DNA of 40,114 nt from an uncultured Bacteroidales bacterium (GTDB lineage Bacteria > Bacteroidota > Bacteroidia > Bacteroidales > JAFGXI01). Shown piece by piece: positions 29,351 through 39,947 of this stretch. Below the pieces are notes generated by a model. That model searched no databases and was not told the origin of the DNA. It was given only the letters and a program-made list of their open reading frames with translations. The translations under genes and the position numbers were made by a program. Positions within the stretch are counted from its first letter, which is position 1. The number at the start of each line of letters is the position of its first letter. Location: contig CAMZKE010000051.1 of assembly GCA_947311115.1 (NCBI GenBank), positions 1-40,114 on the forward strand. The letters are read 5' to 3'.

Positions 29351-31102
29351 TTATTCTGTGTAAACGTTATTATTTGTTGGTGTCTCGTACCAAGTCTTTT
29401 CATTTTCGCCTGAACTTACTGCCCATGTTGAAAACTTTGCATAGGCATCGGTAATTTCTATGCCTTCAAGCGGATGTTTATACACGCTATCGGCTGATAC
29501 AACGCTTATTGCCCATGGTAAACCGTCAATAGTTCTGTATGGAGTACCTGCATTATCGTTTCCTGTACCTAAAACTGATTGGTCTGCGGCTTCTGTAGGC
29601 GGAAAGTTTGGCATATGTATTTCGTAGCCTCTGTTGTTTGTTTGGTAAACATAATAATTGGGTACTAATGCACCTATATAATTATTGTTAAAAGTTATAT
29701 TTGTTGTTAATCGTACCGGTGTACCTGTTTTATCGTAAGATGTATTTGTATAGTACGGAACCATTACGTCAAATTTATTATTAAAAATAATTATTCCGTT
29801 TACTACATCATTATCAATACTACCATCGCCGGAAACACTGGTAACTATTTGTGTATTTATAGCTGTTTTATTTGCATCTAAAATATTACACCCAAAACCT
29901 AGGGCTGTGCTACCTCCTCCTGCATTTATTTTTGTGTTTAATACCGCGTCAACATAATAGCCTTCAGCATTTACAGATAATTCGCCTTTTGTTAGCATTA
30001 CTAAATCATTAAAATCATAATCTCCTTTATAAGGCCATAAATCTTCAAATGAAATTGTTTCATATCCAATATTAGGGTACATTATTTTATAAGCCTTTGT
30101 TGGGTCGTTTGGATAATCATCACCATTATCATTTACTCCATCACCATCAGTATCAAGAACAACGTCAACACTCTCATAAACTATTTTATCTACATATGAA
30201 CCTGAATATAATCCTATATAAAATTGAAAATGAGTGGCATTAGCTAAAATTACACCACTTGATGTAATTGTATTTCCTGTGGTACTAACATAAGTTTCTC
30301 CAATCCAATTACCATTTGCATCAAAATTATCAAGCCATAAGTTAATTGAACCTGAAAATGTCATTGAGAAATCGAATGCAGACCCTCCTTGTACAGGAAA
30401 TGATTGCTCTATTATTTCGAATAAATTAGAGTAGTTTTTAAATACATTTTCTCCATCTATATTACTTACGTGTCCTTCGGTATAATTTGTGTAATACCAT
30501 TTTCCGGGAGTTCTTAATTCTGTCCAGCTCCTTTCATCTTTTTCCAAGTTATCTATATTAAACTCGCTATTTTGTACTAGGTTTGTACCTGTTGTGCTTT
30601 TATTATGTGTAAATTTAGCCATGTTTTTTTGATAGTTAAATGCAAATTCCCTATCGTACACTAAGCTATTCTTCGTGCCATCTCTAGGTTCTGGAGCAAT
30701 TATCATGGTTATATTTCCATCTGTCTTATTTAATAGTTGCTTATTTCCTGAATTTGGATACATTAAATAAAGATTTCCAATATTTGCTGGAGTTTTAATA
30801 GCAAATTTTGCAACTGAATTAATAATTTTTGCTTTTGATATTATATTATCGTCTTTGTCGATTAATAAAAGCAATTGTCCTTCAGTACTAATGTTTTTTC
30901 CCGTTTCTGGTTGCATTGTTACATTTAATGCTCCACTTTTAGAGGCTGACCAATCGAAATCAAAAGGAGCTTTAATGTCGTTAATATTTGTTGGAGTTAC
31001 TACTTGGGTAGGTGAATAAGAAGGAGAATCATCTGTTTCTTTTTTACATGATGAGAATATAGCAAACGTAGCAATCATCACCAAAAATGTTTTAGTTTTC
31101 AT
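29351..31102 (-). CDS. LruC-domain surface lipoprotein
   Basis: Lipoprotein of 583 residues (lipobox IFSSC, Cys19) whose following residues, KKETDD, are charged/acidic as in Bacteroidota surface-export signals, so it may be displayed outside. A middle beta-rich region (about 190-310) resembles a carbohydrate-binding-type jelly roll. A calcium-binding-like DTDGDGVNDNGDDYPNDP follows (about 318-335) and then the LruC/DUF4842-type region with FEDLWPYKGDYDFNDLV (about 351-367). Function of this family is not known to me. The 5' side (31103-31316) is AT-rich with no clear promoter motif; repeat R2 and a terminator follow the stop. Confidence 0.85.
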   Translation of the reverse strand: MKTKTFLVMIATFAIFSSCKKETDDSPSYSPTQVVTPTNINDIKAPFDFDWSASKSGALNVTMQPETGKNISTEGQLLLLIDKDDNIISKAKIINSVAKFAIKTPANIGNLYLMYPNSGNKQLLNKTDGNITMIIAPEPRDGTKNSLVYDREFAFNYQKNMAKFTHNKSTTGTNLVQNSEFNIDNLEKDERSWTELRTPGKWYYTNYTEGHVSNIDGENVFKNYSNLFEIIEQSFPVQGGSAFDFSMTFSGSINLWLDNFDANGNWIGETYVSTTGNTITSSGVILANATHFQFYIGLYSGSYVDKIVYESVDVVLDTDGDGVNDNGDDYPNDPTKAYKIMYPNIGYETISFEDLWPYKGDYDFNDLVMLTKGELSVNAEGYYVDAVLNTKINAGGGSTALGFGCNILDANKTAINTQIVTSVSGDGSIDNDVVNGIIIFNNKFDVMVPYYTNTSYDKTGTPVRLTTNITFNNNYIGALVPNYYVYQTNNRGYEIHMPNFPPTEAADQSVLGTGNDNAGTPYRTIDGLPWAISVVSADSVYKHPLEGIEITDAYAKFSTWAVSSGENEKTWYETPTNNNVYTE

Positions 31103-31316: not shown

Positions 31317-31412
31317 TTAATCTGTTTGGGTTTAATTCCCCGTCCCTTGGGACGTATAAAAGAATAGTATTCCAAAACGATATCTCGTCCGCTTGCGGCG
31401 AGGAGATTCATT
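31317..31412 (+). repeat. Dispersed repeat family 2, copy R3, touching a stop codon
   Basis: Best-formed copy: perfect hairpin CGTCCC-TT-GGGACG (31341-31354) and CTCG-T-CCGC-TT-GCGG-CGAG. The terminal TTCATT overlaps the first two plus-strand bases of the TAA stop of the minus-strand PorE-like gene. Together with the AT-rich upstream region of the LruC gene it accounts for the gap 31103-31410. Confidence 0.85.
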
Positions 31413-33474
31413 AATCATCAAAGCCATCATTAAAATTAATAAATCTAAATTCGGTTCTACGGTTTTTAGCACGTCCTTCCTCGTTATCAGTGCCGTCAGG
31501 GTTTGTATTTGGTGCAATTGGCTTTTCTTCGCCATAACCTTTGGCAATAAGTCGTTTTTTATTAATCCCCTTTTTTATTAGATACTTAACTACGCTTTCT
31601 GCACGTTTTTGTGATAATTCTTTATTATATTCATCGTCCCCCTTGCTATCAGTGTGCGAGCTAATTTCTATTTGAACATTAGGTATTTCTTGTAACACTA
31701 TTAGTAATGTTGAATCAATAGTTGCTTGTGCTTTATCTGATAAATTAGATTTATCGAAATCGTAATAAATATTTACAGGTATTGGCTTTTGTGGTATTGG
31801 GTCAATAATTACAGTATCGTACAATGTTGTCGATTCTGTTATGTTATATGTGTTTATTTTCATTATTTTTTCGTAAAAACCAAAGTTTTTTACTTTAATT
31901 TCGTAAGTGTTATTTGGTTCTAAATTATAATAGCATTTTCCGTTTTTGTCAGTTCTATTAGAATTTATATCAATGGCTTTTTTTGTACGTAAATTTATTA
32001 ATGATAATACAGTTTGAATACTATCAACACTTTGGTCTGTTGTTTTAATACCCATTTTTTCATTAATGGTTCTGAAAATGCTATTATCTTTATTGGCAAT
32101 AACTGTTCCTTCAAATTTTATATCAATAAATTCGGTATAAATAAATTCGTAAATATCGTCGCAACAAGTTTTGTTTTTTAACGATACTCCGCCTTCTCTG
32201 TTCGATACAAAAAATCCTTGTTTTCTATTTTTGTTTAATGTAAAATATATATCATCAGCTTGAGAGTTTATTGGATAACCATAATTTACAGGGTCTGTCC
32301 AGTTACGAACATCACCTGTTGTTTTGAAAATATCGAAACCGCCCATACCGGGTAAGCCATCAGAACTAAAATATAAATTACGAGTGTTATTATCATAGTA
32401 TGGTGTAAACTCGTTTCCCATTGTGTTAATACTTGAGCTTAATTTTTTTACTTTTTTAAATATTTTTTTTCGCTTGTCGTAAATTGAGTACCAAATATCT
32501 GTGCCGCCTTTTCCTCCCGGTCGGTCTGATACGAAATACAATACCTCGTTGCTTTTTTTAGCATCAATACCTATTGTCGGCTGAGTTGAAGTATAATTTT
32601 TTATATTTATTGGCTCAGGCAATTCTTTGGGGGTTAACCATTCGCCACCCTCAATATAACTAACCCATATATGACAAATAGTTTTGTTTTTCCAATTTTT
32701 CTTACATTTTGTAAAATAGAATTTACTTTTATCAACCGAAAAAGCTCCATTTCCTACATTTAAAGTGCTATCGTTAAAAGCGTTTAGGGTATCAACAAAA
32801 TGCCATTTGCCATTTTTTTTAATTGCTTTGTAAAATTTTGTTAATGGCAGGTTATTTAATGTGTCGCTTATATCGTAATACTCTATATTATTAGCTCTTA
32901 ACGATGTGTACCATAGCGTATTTTCATCAACTGATATAGGATTGGCTTCTAAATGTGCTTTATTTACACTTGTATCTATATGTGTTACAATAACTTTAAG
33001 GGTACTATCTTTCATGTTTTTTGCTAAATCGCAACCATTTATTTGAGCCATAGAAAGTTTTTTGTATTTCTTTTTTTCTTCGCCATGTTTGTATTCTTTT
33101 ACAAATTTTGCGAAATGCTCTTTTGCATCGTCATATTTACCTTGTTGCATTAGTGCTTTTGCGTAAAAATAATGTGCTAAAGGATATTTATTGGGATTTC
33201 CTTCGTACGACATTAAAAAATACTCTTCTGCTTTCTGGTAATTCCTTGTTTTTAAATAAAGCTCGCCAAGTTTATATATTGTTTTTGCGTTACCGGGACT
33301 TATTTCGTGGTGATACTCATAATAATCGATAGCCGAATATAAATCGCCTGCTTTTTCCGCTTCTTTGGCAAAACTTTTTACTTGCCAAGGTTGTATTTTT
33401 TTTAATGTTTCTTCCGGTTGAGCAAAAGCAATGTAAAACGAAAGTATAAGACTTATTAAAACTGTATATTTCAT
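31411..33474 (-). CDS. PorE-like OmpA-family protein (TPR, PD40 propeller, CRD, OmpA)
   Basis: Protein of 687 residues with a signal peptide (ending IAFAQ). Domains in order: TPR (about 35-130), WD40/PD40-type beta-propeller (about 165-440; YFVSDRPGGKGGTDIWYS, LYFSSDGLPGMGGFDIF), a carboxypeptidase-regulatory-like domain (about 455-560), and an OmpA C-terminal peptidoglycan-binding domain (about 575-687; EISSHTDSKGDDEYNKELSQ). This is the order described for PorE, the T9SS component that links PorP-type proteins to peptidoglycan, but PorE is a lipoprotein and no lipobox is visible here. It starts 2 bp after the PorP/SprF stop. Probably a module-specific paralogue. Confidence 0.9.
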   Translation of the reverse strand: MKYTVLISLILSFYIAFAQPEETLKKIQPWQVKSFAKEAEKAGDLYSAIDYYEYHHEISPGNAKTIYKLGELYLKTRNYQKAEEYFLMSYEGNPNKYPLAHYFYAKALMQQGKYDDAKEHFAKFVKEYKHGEEKKKYKKLSMAQINGCDLAKNMKDSTLKVIVTHIDTSVNKAHLEANPISVDENTLWYTSLRANNIEYYDISDTLNNLPLTKFYKAIKKNGKWHFVDTLNAFNDSTLNVGNGAFSVDKSKFYFTKCKKNWKNKTICHIWVSYIEGGEWLTPKELPEPINIKNYTSTQPTIGIDAKKSNEVLYFVSDRPGGKGGTDIWYSIYDKRKKIFKKVKKLSSSINTMGNEFTPYYDNNTRNLYFSSDGLPGMGGFDIFKTTGDVRNWTDPVNYGYPINSQADDIYFTLNKNRKQGFFVSNREGGVSLKNKTCCDDIYEFIYTEFIDIKFEGTVIANKDNSIFRTINEKMGIKTTDQSVDSIQTVLSLINLRTKKAIDINSNRTDKNGKCYYNLEPNNTYEIKVKNFGFYEKIMKINTYNITESTTLYDTVIIDPIPQKPIPVNIYYDFDKSNLSDKAQATIDSTLLIVLQEIPNVQIEISSHTDSKGDDEYNKELSQKRAESVVKYLIKKGINKKRLIAKGYGEEKPIAPNTNPDGTDNEEGRAKNRRTEFRFINFNDGFDD

Positions 33475-33476
33475 AT

Positions 33477-34484
33477 TTAAAATCTATCGCAAGGTATTGC
33501 TATTTTTTTAGCAGTTGTATTTTTACTTCTATAAATTAATGTTATCTCTAATGCACCTCGGTGTGATGTGGCAGGTGTTAACGACGAAATATTAACATCG
33601 TAACTTACGCCAATATCCATATTTGTAAAATTAAGACCTACTGCAAAAATAATAGCGTCGGTTTGGCTTAATACAGTTCTAATATGAGGTCCAAAAAATA
33701 TTGACTTTGCATAATAATTATTTTGAGGCAGATTGTAACCAAAATTTACACCCCAAATCATATCGGCAGCACGTTTATGATTCATATATAATATACGTGG
33801 CTTTGCAAAAAACTTTTTCGATAAATCAATTTTTGTTCCAACATGAATAATATGTCGTAATGGTAATTTGTTTTTTTGTGTACCAAACTGTTCGGTCGGG
33901 TTTGATACATGAAAAAGTGAATATCCAAATTCGGGCTCAATTTTACCAAATTTACGGCTTACAATTATTCCTGCATTAACATCTAAATATGATGTGCTTT
34001 CGTTTAAATCATTCTCGTTATTTGCAAAATCAGGATTAAACTCACCAATACTCCTGTCATATTGAGATGGATAAGTTACTTTTGAATTAAATTTTTTGTT
34101 TACAAAGCCTAATTGTATTCCTCCCGAAATTTTATAGTCGTTGTAGCGTGTTTGGTAAGCTAATGATATCATTATTTTATTAGCTGTTAAATCGGCACTA
34201 CCCGAATTATCGTTTAAAAAATAAATACCTGCACCAAAATTTCTTCCAAAAAGTTTTAATCTTTTATCTAGTCCAACTGATATTGTATTATATGGTTCTT
34301 TTGAAACGGCACCCCATTGGGTTCTGAAAATATTTGATAATCGCCAATCGCCATCAAATCTACCTGTATTTGCAGGGTTTAAGGTTAGCGGGCTGTAATA
34401 AAACTGCGAAAAATGTATATCTTGAGCGTAACTACTAAAAGTAATTATTGATAAAATAAATAGTATGCGTAATTTTTTTACCAT
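33477..34484 (-). CDS. PorP/SprF-family type IX secretion outer-membrane protein
   Basis: Outer-membrane protein of 335 residues with a signal peptide (ending SSYAQ) and the family opening DIHFSQFYYSPLTLNPANTG (about 22-41), then a predicted beta-barrel (for example ISVGLDKRLKLFGRNFGAGI). PorP/SprF proteins are needed for export or surface retention of type B CTD substrates. Its start overlaps the end of the upstream protease gene by 7 bp and the PorE-like gene begins 2 bp after its stop, so the three form an operon, divergent from a type B substrate gene. Confidence 0.93.
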   Translation of the reverse strand: MVKKLRILFILSIITFSSYAQDIHFSQFYYSPLTLNPANTGRFDGDWRLSNIFRTQWGAVSKEPYNTISVGLDKRLKLFGRNFGAGIYFLNDNSGSADLTANKIMISLAYQTRYNDYKISGGIQLGFVNKKFNSKVTYPSQYDRSIGEFNPDFANNENDLNESTSYLDVNAGIIVSRKFGKIEPEFGYSLFHVSNPTEQFGTQKNKLPLRHIIHVGTKIDLSKKFFAKPRILYMNHKRAADMIWGVNFGYNLPQNNYYAKSIFFGPHIRTVLSQTDAIIFAVGLNFTNMDIGVSYDVNISSLTPATSHRGALEITLIYRSKNTTAKKIAIPCDRF

Positions 34485-35338
34485 AAATAATATCTGTTAT
34501 GTAAATATTCGTATGCCATTACCCTGTATTGTTGCTTTGTAAATTTGCATCTGCAATCGCCATAATACGACATAATATTATCGGTTGGAGGCATATAAAA
34601 TTCATCGTTACTATCTTTTAACATTGGCGACAATTCGCATTGATTGTTTGCAGTGTATGCACTGGGTAAATCAGCACTTGGGTCGGCTTCTGTATCGCAT
34701 AAAAAATCGCCGCTTGTTTCACAATTAGATTCATTTACAAGCTCTGTTGCGTTACCATCGCCAAAAGTGTGAAGTAATCCAAAAAAATGACCAAACTCGT
34801 GTGGTATCGTCATATCATCAACATTATCTTTAAGAATAAATATATTATCAGCTCCGCCCGGATACGATGTAAAACCTGTTGCTTGTGGCAAACCCTCGAA
34901 AGCTGTTACAAAATACACATTTATAGTACTATCAATATGATTATTTGTAGTCATTTGCTGTTCTTCTTTTAATCCATCATCATCATTTACGACCAAAGTA
35001 TCCCACTGATAGTTTTCTATTGAGTCGATTGAACAAATTCTAAAACTTAAATTTATTGGAGAGAATTTACTATTTAATGTATCAATAGCAATATAAATAT
35101 CGTTAGTATCAATATTTGGTTCTCCTAAACTATCTAGTACAATATGAATTGATAACGACAATGTTTTATCTAGATTTGGCAAAAGCTGATTTTGCGGTAT
35201 TGCCGTATTTCTTGCTTGAGCATAAGCGTAATAAGCAGGTGTTAACTCATTTGTAAATTGAGCTGATACATTATTAATACCCAATAAACTAATTATTATA
35301 ACTAAATTAATAAATATAACATTTTTTATTTTATACAT
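34478..35338 (-). CDS. M43-type (pappalysin/cytophagalysin-like) zinc metalloprotease
   Basis: Metzincin protease, about 286 residues from the ATG at 35338, chosen because it begins a clean signal peptide (ending NNVSAQ); the track start at 35371 adds 11 residues. The zinc motif HEFGHFFGLLH (HExxHxxGxxH) is complete, followed by the cysteine-rich ESNCETSGDFLCDTEADPS typical of M43 and a Met-turn in NIMSYYGDC. The protein ends soon after, without a T9SS C-terminal domain. It leads the operon with PorP/SprF and the PorE-like protein, so it may act in the periplasm or at the cell surface on the adjacent adhesin, but that is inference. Confidence 0.9.
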   Translation of the reverse strand: MYKIKNVIFINLVIIISLLGINNVSAQFTNELTPAYYAYAQARNTAIPQNQLLPNLDKTLSLSIHIVLDSLGEPNIDTNDIYIAIDTLNSKFSPINLSFRICSIDSIENYQWDTLVVNDDDGLKEEQQMTTNNHIDSTINVYFVTAFEGLPQATGFTSYPGGADNIFILKDNVDDMTIPHEFGHFFGLLHTFGDGNATELVNESNCETSGDFLCDTEADPSADLPSAYTANNQCELSPMLKDSNDEFYMPPTDNIMSYYGDCRCKFTKQQYRVMAYEYLHNRYYLW

Positions 35339-35373
35339 TGATATGTTAAAGTTTGTAATTTGTAATTTCAATT

Positions 35374-35387
35374 TGCTAAAATTAGCA
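35374..35387. promoter_or_regulatory. Inverted repeat in divergent intergenic region
   Basis: TGCTAA-AA-TTAGCA lies between the divergent protease operon and the PKD adhesin gene. Both sides also carry TATTTTAG/TAATTTTAG stretches close to the -7 consensus but not exact. It could be an operator shared by both units or a chance AT-rich repeat. Confidence 0.3.
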
Positions 35388-35468
35388 TAATTTCTAAACT
35401 TTTAAAAAAAAACATTAAAATATGTTAATAATTTTATATTTTAGCACAAAAAATAAACATAACATACA

Positions 35469-38400
35469 GTGAAATTACGATATATTTTAATTATTACGAT
35501 ACTATTTTTAGTTAAGGCAAATATTTATTCTCAAATAAGTGCATCAAGTAACTCAGTTTGTATTGGCGAAGCCATAAGTTTTACATACCAAAGCAGTAGC
35601 AATTTAACAGGTGTAGTTTGGGATTTTGGCGATGGAGCCGGAGCTCAAGATTTGTTAAATGTAAGTCATTCGTATAATAATTCAGGAACATATACAGTTT
35701 CTTTTACTGCAAACGGAGGCGTTTCAGATCAAATACAGATAACAGTTCATCCTGATCCAACTGTTATTTTTAATGGCGGTGGTGCAGGGTGTACGCCTTT
35801 TGATGCTAGTTTTATAAGCACATCGGTTGGTGGTGATGGCTCTGCTATTGTTAGTACTGTTTGGACTTTTGGAGATGGTGGTTCTGATACCTCACCAACA
35901 CATACATATAATGCAGCAGGAGTTTTCGATGTGTCGCTCGAAGTAACCGATGCAAATGGCTGTACTGCTTATGGTGTTGTTAACGATTTAGTTTCCACGT
36001 CACCAGAACCATTTGCTTATATAACAACAAATCCAATGCCTGCTGTAGCATGTTTACCTCCTTTAAACGTAAATTTTAATGGAAGTAATTCTCATAGTAA
36101 TTCGCCAAGTGGTTCAACATTAACTTACCAATGGGATTTTGGAAATGGAAATACCGGTTCCGGAGTTAATCCTCCTCAGCAAATATACGATGCTTTAGGT
36201 TCTTATCCTGTTTATTTAACTGTTACCGATAACAATGGTTGCCCACATGATACAACTTTAAATGTTGAAATTCATAACCCGACAGCAGGATTCGATGTTG
36301 GTGATACAGTTTGTAAATCAGTTACTTTTGTAGATAATTCTTCAGGAGGTTCAGTTTTGTGGTTTTATGGCGATGGTAATATTAGTTATAACCCACATCA
36401 TGAATATGCTGATACAGGTTATTATCAAGTAATGCAAATAGTAACTATAGCAGGAACAACTTGTAGAGATACACTTATTGATACAATATTTGTAGAAGAA
36501 CCTTTTGCAAGTTTTACTATTGACCCAAGTTTTTTATGCGATATTTATTCACCGGGAAATGTTATTCATTTTAATAGCAATTCTTCATCAGCCAATGTAG
36601 TTGGTTATGATTGGGATTTTGGTTTAGACACAATAGCTGACGACCCAATTATTGGGCATTATCATGGAACTCTCGGTACATCAAGTGAAGCAAACCCAAC
36701 TGACACTGTGGTTTTTGTGGACAACGAATATAGTATAAATGGAATGGGAGTATTTACTACTTGCCTTACTGTGCAAACTATTCATGGATGTACTGATGAT
36801 ACTTGTATTGTTGATACCATTCAAAAGCCAAATGCCTTGTTTATGACCGATGTAACCGATGGCTGTTTACCATTAACGGTAGAGTTTTCCGATTCAAGCA
36901 GCTCTTTTACCGATATTCTAGGTTTTACTTGGTTTTTTGGCGATGGAGATAGTCTTGTTGGAGGAATAAATGACACTATTGTTTCGCATACTTATATAAA
37001 TGAAGGTATTTATAACTCTTATTTGGTAATTACTAATGAGCATGGTTGTACCGATACTTCGTATTTTACACCAATTTATGTTGGCGATGTAAGTAGCCCT
37101 AACTTTTCAATTTCAAATAATACCGTTTGCCCACAAGATACCGTATATTTTACCGATTTAACAACTTTACCTGATTCTATTGATTATTGGCACTTTACAG
37201 CTGATAACAATTTAATGTCGCATTGCCCTACAATGTCAGAGCCATACTGGGTTTTTCATTCGGTAACAGGTGTTCATGATATTACACTTACAACATGTAA
37301 TAAAGGTTGTTGTACCGATAATACTTTATCAAACTTTATAACTGTACAAGGTCCTATTTGCAAAATAGATAATTATAGTATGGATTGTGCGACACCTTTC
37401 GATTTTTCTTTTGATGGAAATGTTGATGATGTTGAAAATTGGCAATGGGATTTTGGAGATGGTACAATTATTTCCGGTTTAACAAATTTAACAGATACAA
37501 TTACATCGCACACTTACTCAACTACAGGTAATTACAATGTTGTATTAACAGCCTATAATTCAACAACAGGTTGCACACAGTATTCTGACACAATAATAAT
37601 TCATGTAAGAGATATAGATGCCTCTTTTGGTGAAGATTCATTATACTGTATGAATGTTGGCGATTATTTTAGTAGTTCTTCTTCTGTTGATGTATATACA
37701 TCGTGCCATAGAGGGTATTATTGGGATTTTGGTGATGAAACCAGACCTATTAGAACAGATATGGATTCAATATCTCATATTTTTGCTGATACAGGTAATT
37801 ATACAGTAACATTAATTGTACGAGACATTAACATGTGTACCGATACAGTTACTAAAAATGTTAGAGTTTATGGTGTTTATGCAGGTTATATTATTGATAG
37901 CTTATATGGATGTAAACCTGAATTTGGTGTTAATTTTACAGACACTTCTACTTTCGATTATTCTGATTCGTTATATTCTTGGCAATGGAACTTTGACGAT
38001 GGTACATATAGCTCTGAACCACACCCTCACCATAATTTTGTTTATACAAGTACACAACATAGTTTCCAAGTGCTTTTAACTGTAACCGATAGTATTGGCT
38101 GTAAAGATACGCTTACTAAAACTGTACAGTTTTCGTTACCTAATGCTAATTTTAATTATTTTCTTGATAGAGAAATTTGCGTAGGCGATAGTGTTGGTTT
38201 TAATCCGTATAGTAATGATACATCATTACAGTTTACATGGAATTTTGGCGATAATGATACATTATATTATCTTGATACAGCATTACAAAATTATTATCAT
38301 ACATATTTGCATGATAGTATTTTTAGTGTTTCGTTACAGGTTGAAGACTCAATACATTGTTTAGAGAATTACACATTATCACAAAATATTGATGTACAAG

Positions 38401-39947
38401 CGTATCCAATAGCAGGTTTTTTTACCGTGCCTGATTTATCTATACCTCTTTGTTATGGAAACAACGTTGTATATACCGATACAAGTATCTCAAAATATTT
38501 TTACGAGCGTACTTGGGATTTAGAAGATGGAACACCAGTTTCGCCAGACTCAATAAATACTTGGTTTTACGACGAAAAAGGAATATATAATGTTAGTTTG
38601 GTAGCAACCACAACTAACGGTTGTAGCGATACAGCTACAGCTACGTTAAATGTTGTAGGACCTATAGCTGATTTTACATTAGCCCCTAATTTAATATGTA
38701 AAGGTCAAGATATTACATTTAATCTTTCAAATATGGAAGATGTGTTATATTATTATTTCGATTTTGGTGATGGAATTACAACAGATACTATCACTGTTAA
38801 CGGACAAACATCGATAGATGAAACCCATACATATAATTATGGACCTGTTTCTGGACAAACAATTGCTCAATTAACAGTATTTTCTGACGATACTCTTTGT
38901 CCGGTAAGGTTTGATACAATAGTATATATACATACAGTTATTGCCGATTTTAATCGTAATAACGAAATTGCAAAAACAGATACAGCTCATTGTTTATTTA
39001 TTACTGATGAGTTTAATAGTTCGGCATCTATTAATGCCGATAATATTTCGTGGAGTTTTGGAGACGGTGCAAGTGCTGGAAATATACAAAATCCTCAACA
39101 TGAATACTCTCAGCCAGGAACTTATAATGTTACCCTACATATTCAAGACGATGAATCGGGCTGTACTGATGAGTTAATAAAACCAATGATAATTTTTCCA
39201 AACCCTGAAGTTATTGCCTATGGTGGTGATACGTGTAGGGGTGATGCAATACAAATTTTTGCAAACGTAACAACAGGTAATTTTGTTTGGAATCCTACCA
39301 CCGGATTAAACGATGCAACAGCACAAAACCCTATGGCATCGCCAAACGAGACCACAGAATATACTGTTTTTGTTTCAGATACTAACGATTGTAAAGATAC
39401 TGCTAAAACAATAGTTTATATTCAGCAACCACCTGAAGAGTGGGTACGTGATACAACTATTATAATTGGTGAAACTTTTAATCTTAACGGTGAACAAGAA
39501 GGTGGTTATTCTTATGTTTGGTCTCCTGAAACAAATTTAGATTGTACAGTGTGTCCAAATCCAAATGCAAATCCACAAGACGATATTTCTTACTATTTAG
39601 TTGTGCAAGATACAATGGGATGTAAGTTTATCGCAAACAATCGTTACGATGTTGAAGTGCTACCAGTTTCTTCAGTTGATGTACCTGATGTGTTTACACC
39701 TAATGGTGATGGCGACAATGACCGTATATATGTAAAGGGTTGGGGAATAAAAAAACTATTAGAGTTTAGTATTTATAATCGCTGGGGTGAAAAGGTTTAT
39801 ACAAGTACCGATATTAACGAAGGTTGGGACGGTACATTTAATGGTAAACCACAAAATGTAGATTCGTATGCATACTATGTTAGATGCGAAACATATATTG
39901 ACCCTCAGCCAATTACTAAAAAAGGAACTTTTACACTTATTAGATAA
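35469..39947 (+). CDS. Giant PKD-repeat surface adhesin with type B T9SS C-terminal domain
   Basis: Secreted protein of 1492 residues. GTG start at 35469, signal peptide ending KANIYSQ. About 14 PKD-like domains follow (roughly 25-1290), each with a variant of WxFGDG, a HxYxxxGxYxVxL block and often a pair of cysteines; one near residue 570 (DYWHFTAD) is degenerate. Two SprB-type Ig-like repeats follow (about 1250-1395; VWNPTTGLNDATAQNP, VWSPETNLDCTVCPNP), then the gliding-motility-associated (type B) CTD starting VPDVFTPNGDGDNDRIYVKG and ending KKGTFTLIR. Such proteins are long fibrous adhesins exported by T9SS. It is divergent from the PorP/SprF operon by about 130 bp. Confidence 0.93.
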   Translation: MKLRYILIITILFLVKANIYSQISASSNSVCIGEAISFTYQSSSNLTGVVWDFGDGAGAQDLLNVSHSYNNSGTYTVSFTANGGVSDQIQITVHPDPTVIFNGGGAGCTPFDASFISTSVGGDGSAIVSTVWTFGDGGSDTSPTHTYNAAGVFDVSLEVTDANGCTAYGVVNDLVSTSPEPFAYITTNPMPAVACLPPLNVNFNGSNSHSNSPSGSTLTYQWDFGNGNTGSGVNPPQQIYDALGSYPVYLTVTDNNGCPHDTTLNVEIHNPTAGFDVGDTVCKSVTFVDNSSGGSVLWFYGDGNISYNPHHEYADTGYYQVMQIVTIAGTTCRDTLIDTIFVEEPFASFTIDPSFLCDIYSPGNVIHFNSNSSSANVVGYDWDFGLDTIADDPIIGHYHGTLGTSSEANPTDTVVFVDNEYSINGMGVFTTCLTVQTIHGCTDDTCIVDTIQKPNALFMTDVTDGCLPLTVEFSDSSSSFTDILGFTWFFGDGDSLVGGINDTIVSHTYINEGIYNSYLVITNEHGCTDTSYFTPIYVGDVSSPNFSISNNTVCPQDTVYFTDLTTLPDSIDYWHFTADNNLMSHCPTMSEPYWVFHSVTGVHDITLTTCNKGCCTDNTLSNFITVQGPICKIDNYSMDCATPFDFSFDGNVDDVENWQWDFGDGTIISGLTNLTDTITSHTYSTTGNYNVVLTAYNSTTGCTQYSDTIIIHVRDIDASFGEDSLYCMNVGDYFSSSSSVDVYTSCHRGYYWDFGDETRPIRTDMDSISHIFADTGNYTVTLIVRDINMCTDTVTKNVRVYGVYAGYIIDSLYGCKPEFGVNFTDTSTFDYSDSLYSWQWNFDDGTYSSEPHPHHNFVYTSTQHSFQVLLTVTDSIGCKDTLTKTVQFSLPNANFNYFLDREICVGDSVGFNPYSNDTSLQFTWNFGDNDTLYYLDTALQNYYHTYLHDSIFSVSLQVEDSIHCLENYTLSQNIDVQAYPIAGFFTVPDLSIPLCYGNNVVYTDTSISKYFYERTWDLEDGTPVSPDSINTWFYDEKGIYNVSLVATTTNGCSDTATATLNVVGPIADFTLAPNLICKGQDITFNLSNMEDVLYYYFDFGDGITTDTITVNGQTSIDETHTYNYGPVSGQTIAQLTVFSDDTLCPVRFDTIVYIHTVIADFNRNNEIAKTDTAHCLFITDEFNSSASINADNISWSFGDGASAGNIQNPQHEYSQPGTYNVTLHIQDDESGCTDELIKPMIIFPNPEVIAYGGDTCRGDAIQIFANVTTGNFVWNPTTGLNDATAQNPMASPNETTEYTVFVSDTNDCKDTAKTIVYIQQPPEEWVRDTTIIIGETFNLNGEQEGGYSYVWSPETNLDCTVCPNPNANPQDDISYYLVVQDTMGCKFIANNRYDVEVLPVSSVDVPDVFTPNGDGDNDRIYVKGWGIKKLLEFSIYNRWGEKVYTSTDINEGWDGTFNGKPQNVDSYAYYVRCETYIDPQPITKKGTFTLIR

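Follow-up and report, generated by a model that had tools for sequence, protein, structure and literature searches.

The window analyzed here, a 40,114-nucleotide stretch of DNA from an uncultured Bacteroidales bacterium, carries a four-gene locus that we read, with a probability of roughly 60%, as encoding a cell wall-anchored rod of fixed length and a dedicated periplasmic escort of M43 fold. A trio of PorE, PorP, and type B substrate is already known from other systems; a fixed-length rod with an M43 or pseudo-M43 partner is undescribed as far as the literature we searched shows. Nothing on M43 proteins as members of a T9SS module was found in that literature, most subscription journals lying outside it.

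Open reading frames and profile matches agreed in every detail with the layout given in the first-pass annotation, namely, a minus-strand operon of M43, PorP/SprF, and PorE-like genes divergent from the gene for a 1492-amino-acid PKD protein with a type B CTD. The M43-like metalloprotease of the pappalysin/cytophagalysin family (34478 to 35338, minus strand; PF05572) has 286 amino acids when read from its ATG, with a signal peptide, no CTD, and a C-terminal tryptophan; the longest reading frame of this gene (34478 to 35371, minus strand) begins at a TTG at 35371. The gene overlaps by 7 bp (34478 to 34484) with that of the PorP/SprF-family outer membrane barrel (33477 to 34484, minus strand; 335 amino acids), and a gap of 2 bp (33475 to 33476) separates the latter from the gene for the PorE-like protein (31411 to 33474, minus strand; 687 amino acids). 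The gene for the PKD-repeat rod (35469 to 39947, plus strand; 1492 amino acids, 40 cysteines) starts with a GTG at 35469 and lies 130 bp from the M43 ATG at 35338, or 97 bp from the frame that begins with TTG. This 130-bp divergent intergenic region (35339 to 35468) contains no copy of the Bacteroidetes promoter motif TAnnTTTG. Downstream of the PorE-like gene, the window encodes an LruC/DUF4842-domain protein (29351 to 31102), and where the PorE-like gene ends, a low-G+C spacer follows with short G+C-rich palindromic stretches (ccgtcccttgggacg and its neighbors; 31340 to 31420), which may form a terminator or a small repeat.

The PKD protein has 10 PKD_4 matches and ends in a T9SS type B sorting domain (Bac_Flav_CTERM; 39678 to 39944, plus strand) that scored above the curated TIGR04131 cut-off of 35 bits in both the protein scan (55.9 bits) and the genome scan (62.9 bits). 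The barrel passed both of its profiles, PF11751 with 137 bits (cut-off, 22.3) and TIGR03519 with 164 bits (cut-off, 90.6). The PorE-like protein has the domain set of PorE, comprising TPR, a beta-propeller (PD40), a regulatory-like domain, and an OmpA peptidoglycan-binding domain (PF00691, 81 bits), and its AF2 model reached a pLDDT of 87. Its NF052230 score of 307 bits is under the cut-off of 600, which another gene of the same genome (G000:C48) passes with 648 bits, and no lipobox cysteine was seen when its N terminus, MKYTVLISLILSFYIAFAQPEE, was read by eye.

The locus places a PorP/SprF-like shuttle beside a type B substrate in a genome that bears a T9SS. The SprA translocon itself lies outside the locus, elsewhere in the genome (G000:C1; 2636 bits), and trios of PorE, PorP, and type B protein without M43 are common and have been described (PMC12618676, PMC9143113); the candidate reading of the locus as a self-contained export module is weakened by both facts. 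The genome has 14 full-length PorP/SprF genes, a further partial match where a contig ends, many PorE-like genes, and about 35 type B CTDs above the cut-off, numbers that oblige many of the type B substrates either to share a shuttle or to draw on one encoded elsewhere. The label “giant” does not fit the PKD protein either, as type B reading frames in the same genome extend to 3416 amino acids.

Two further genomes from the window's own small family carry the identical layout, with different genes outside the unit. Identities to the window in these two genomes were 70 and 52% for the M43 protein, 70 and 64% for PorP, 71 and 60% for the PorE-like protein, and 59 and 51% for the PKD protein, which is exactly 1492 amino acids long in all three genomes. 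A profile of the three M43 proteins matched nine more genomes when run against 247 genomes of the order. Seven of the nine had short M43 proteins and the same partners in other gene orders: the PKD gene was divergent from PorP-PorE-M43 (L040 and L043), PKD-PorP-PorE was divergent from M43 (L041 and L045), or the whole set stood in tandem (L046); in L044 and in L042, which lies at a contig end, the genes seen were PKD and M43 alone. The remaining two (L047 and L048) had long M43 proteins without partner genes. Searches of genome contigs with the window M43 protein alone gave no match, and a 10-sequence M43 alignment succeeded as the query. The resulting scan of GTDB species genomes yielded 80 named loci from the Bacteroidales, Flavobacteriales, Saprospirales, Chitinophagales, Sphingobacteriales, and Cytophagales, a set gathered by M43 similarity with scan patterns that favored the catalytic helix or a GDxxCDT motif. 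Most of these loci pair a PKD protein of 1400 to 1500 amino acids with an adjoining M43 protein of 250 to 300. Two of the module M43 loci (L051 and L067) are on contigs labeled Verrucomicrobia and Thermoanaerobaculia, which are probably misbinned Bacteroidota.

Clustering of the genes around the 80 module M43s placed a PKD gene in 74 loci, PorP in 42, and PorE in 36, with any other family in at most 7. The M43 and PKD genes lay within 400 bp of each other in 65/80 cases, 56 of these pairs being divergent, compared with 0/33 for other M43 genes, for most of which only about 1.5 kb of flank was read. Among the 42 loci with more than 5 kb on both sides, 41 had the PKD gene and 25 had all four genes. 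The module is thus made up of four genes with no fifth member, and M43 and PKD are its core pair. PorP or PorE was not near the pair in 13 to 17 of the 42 well-flanked loci, mostly from Saprospiraceae, where anchoring may therefore differ. That the gene set persists while the gene order varies favors function over frozen synteny. The proposal that the four genes form one unit was borne out, with the same set recurring, rearranged, in many Bacteroidota families; separation of the protease and PKD genes in relatives was looked for, and the two instead stay together. The protease is also the fixed member that it was suspected to be, with the qualification that what it constantly accompanies is the PKD rod, not PorP.

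We then considered what the M43 protein does. The window protein matched PF05572 with 33.0 bits (cut-off, 23), its AF2 model (pLDDT, 88; pTM, 0.83) had PAPP-A, PAPP-A2, ulilysin, and mirolysin as the best PDB fold matches in Foldseek, in agreement with the sequence profile, and both the HExxHxxGxxH motif (HEFGHFFGLLH, residues 180 to 190; 34769 to 34801, minus strand) and the Met-turn are intact. Module M43 proteins share this fold and zinc motif with the M43 peptidases mirolysin, ulilysin, cytophagalysin, and PAPP-A but differ from them in being short and without a CTD, in forming one clade, and in the repeated loss of catalytic residues. They have 247 to 337 amino acids and an N-terminal hydrophobic signal, and they occupy one side of a branch that separates them from the 33 other M43 proteins (SH-aLRT, 95, with motif columns masked). 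The catalytic glutamate or a core zinc histidine is gone in 24/80 module proteins and in 0/33 others (Fisher, 9e-5). These losses comprise 21 replacements of the glutamate (by Q, L, M, A, or F) and 3 cases in which the second zinc histidine is missing and the glutamate is kept; by this strict count, the site is intact in 56/80. Metzincins can use aspartate as the third zinc ligand, and four cases with H-to-D or H-to-N changes at that ligand and an intact glutamate were for this reason left out of the count. By parsimony on the best tree, many branches of which are weakly supported, the losses amount to about 10 separate changes.

Pairs of inactive M43 genes close enough to measure gave dN/dS values of 0.04 to 0.09, within the range of most intact pairs, and these measurable copies are thus under strong purifying selection. 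The disulfide-type cysteines and the GDxxCDT segment, for which the scan partly selected, are kept at 96 to 100% in the inactive proteins. The final residue is tryptophan in 68/80 module M43s (67/79 plus the window, where the codons lie at 34478 to 34483), often as YLW, and occurs in 93% of the proteins with an intact site but in 67% of the inactive proteins; it is possibly a docking tail.

The strongest competing explanation is that the M43 protein is a processing protease for which catalysis is the point of the association and whose target during export is the PKD protein, its CTD, or a partner. It would account for the M43 fold, for the constant linkage to the PKD gene, and for the complete HExxHxxGxxH and Met-turn of the window and of the 56 relatives with an intact site. 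We nevertheless regard it as unlikely, because the gene has been kept, under purifying selection where this could be measured, through about 10 changes that removed the glutamate or a zinc histidine, and because type B proteins are reported to remain bound to their PorP-like partner (PMC9143113). With catalytic residues lost in 24/80 proteins, trimming or processing cannot be the role common to module M43s, and the suggestion that the protease perhaps trims the adhesin fails as a general role, the site of the window copy itself being intact. Instead, the M43 protein is probably a dedicated periplasmic partner, an escort that binds the rod before or during export; its predicted place in the periplasm follows from a signal peptide recognized by eye and from the missing CTD. 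Catalysis would then be dispensable for the conserved function, and in the window lineage the intact site may add a proteolytic step.

We also asked which partner M43 follows. On a PKD tree built from a 275-residue middle region of proteins limited to 1340 to 2200 amino acids, the presence or absence of M43 needs 4 changes, against a shuffled mean of 31.5. The apparent exceptions are a locus with a tblastn M43 match and no called M43 reading frame (L119), a second CTD gene inside a module locus (L065), and a genuine PKD pair without M43 (L186). On the PorP tree, the same label needs 13 changes, and the PorPs of M43 loci intermingle with those of other trios, which gives no support to an initial view of M43 as tied to PorP. 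Few changes on the PKD tree and mixed PorPs together indicate that M43 travels with the PKD protein. A reverse search, in which genomes of the order and the phylum were scanned with a profile of the PKD protein middle, revealed many trios of PKD (about 1450 amino acids), PorP, and PorE without a detectable M43, and the expectation of an M43 in every such trio was dropped. About 40 PKD proteins of this search, mostly linked to PorP and PorE, have no M43 nearby; an escort is thus dispensable in some cases.

How common such trios are in the order would also fit a division in which PorE, PorP, and the PKD protein are the functional unit and M43 acts separately in the periplasm or at the surface, for example, in immunity, sensing, or inhibition, and is merely coregulated; M43 is, moreover, often divergent from the trio operon and not inside it. 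We consider this quite improbable, because M43 is confined to one PKD clade and remains beside the PKD gene also at loci that have no PorP or PorE close by. The layout shared unchanged by three genomes from a single small family might have suggested chance or synteny frozen among a handful of relatives, a reading that the wider survey refutes for practical purposes with its varied gene orders and unrelated flanks in Bacteroidales, Flavobacteriales, Saprospirales, Chitinophagales, and others.

Forty-seven full-length PKD partners are collinear from end to end at 29 to 59% identity to the window protein, and their lengths range from 1381 to 1595 amino acids, with the middle 80% between 1434 and 1494. 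In the alignment of these 47 proteins, 34 columns hold cysteine in at least 80% of sequences. Cysteine pairs about 25 to 30 residues apart straddle domain borders (165-195, 258-282, 332-357, 441-466, and 527-554, and so on along the protein), and disulfides probably staple each PKD domain to the next, which would give a rigid rod whose length is set. Such a protein, collinear, constant in length, and rich in disulfides, does not resemble a fast-changing adhesin, and the designation of the protein as an adhesin is weakened accordingly.

In related systems, PorP-like proteins serve as both shuttle and anchor, and PorE binds PorP (PMC9143113, PMC12618676). In Porphyromonas gingivalis, PorE binds PorP and PorP binds the type B protein PG1035 (PMC9143113), so that a type B CTD protein sits on a PorP barrel bound to PorE, a periplasmic protein whose OmpA domain binds peptidoglycan, as would the corresponding window proteins; that system differs in having a single PorP and no described M43 partner, and the window PorE-like protein is a paralogue, under the PorE cut-off and with no lipobox seen. 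In Flavobacterium johnsoniae, five operons, thought to form static surface complexes, combine the genes for a type B substrate, its shuttle, and a homologue of PorE; they coencode the cognate partners, as here, with no M43 gene mentioned (PMC12618676). Shuttle and type B substrate of F. johnsoniae have been shown to pair as cognates (PMC12618676). At the window locus, the nearest relatives of both the CTD and PorP are the corresponding proteins of other module copies in other genomes. Paralogues of the same genome (13 PorPs and 10 CTDs compared) rank only from 52nd (PorP) and 63rd (CTD) on, and the two nearest own-genome loci, C145 and C127, are the same in both lists. These ranks are in keeping with cognate pairing of this PorP paralogue and the CTD, short of proof.

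The PorP/SprF-family carrier of SprB likewise serves a type B substrate and has cysteine in its periplasmic C-terminal tail, where the CXC of SprF is linked by a disulfide to GldK in gliding (PMC12635249). By comparison, the window PorP has a single tail cysteine, Cys332 (IPCDRF; 33489 to 33491, minus strand), and a PorE-like gene alongside; CXC is absent from its tail and from those of all module PorPs (0/42). From this combination, the window PorP is probably static and not a gliding carrier. The window PorE-like protein has a vicinal cysteine pair, C437-C438 (TCCDDIY; 33161 to 33166, minus strand), that at least 90% of the aligned PorE-like sequences share. Among 76 PorP-PorE pairs (L013 to L219), the tail cysteine and the cysteine pair occur together in 48 and are both missing in 24, with the tail cysteine only in 4 and the cysteine pair only in 0. 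Put differently, the PorP tail cysteine is present in 48/48 pairs whose PorE-like protein has the vicinal pair and missing in 24/28 without it, an association that represents only 2 to 3 independent tree contrasts and is therefore a lead, not a result. By analogy with SprF-GldK, it suggests a disulfide between the PorP tail cysteine and the PorE cysteine pair.

The escort reading can be laid out as a sequence of steps. Sec would export the proteins into the periplasm, as signal peptides read by eye predict, and there the M43-fold protein would bind the PKD rod, a step to which coinheritance and adjacency point and in which M43 catalysis would be optional across the family. The rod would then pass the general SprA/Sov T9SS translocon by means of its type B CTD and be captured at the surface by its cognate PorP-family barrel, both as known for the class. 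Finally, the OmpA domain of the PorE-like protein would tie PorP to peptidoglycan, as known for PorE, and may leave a static, anchored rod.

More broadly, and more tentatively, an M43 clade may have become T9SS accessory factors, that is, noncatalytic pseudoprotease escorts of one disulfide-stapled family of type B rods, whose activity was repeatedly lost while the partner role was kept, together with a PorP barrel locked to its PorE-like protein by a disulfide from the PorP tail cysteine to the PorE Cys-Cys pair; for this wider combination, we would put the chances slightly short of even. The pairing, across the phylum, of a single rod family with an M43-fold protein that has repeatedly lost its active site bears on how large type B substrates stay ready for T9SS export and on the periplasmic factors that attend individual substrates. 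It offers a candidate for a dedicated escort, and the natural intact and inactive versions of M43 are a built-in control for separating binding from cutting.
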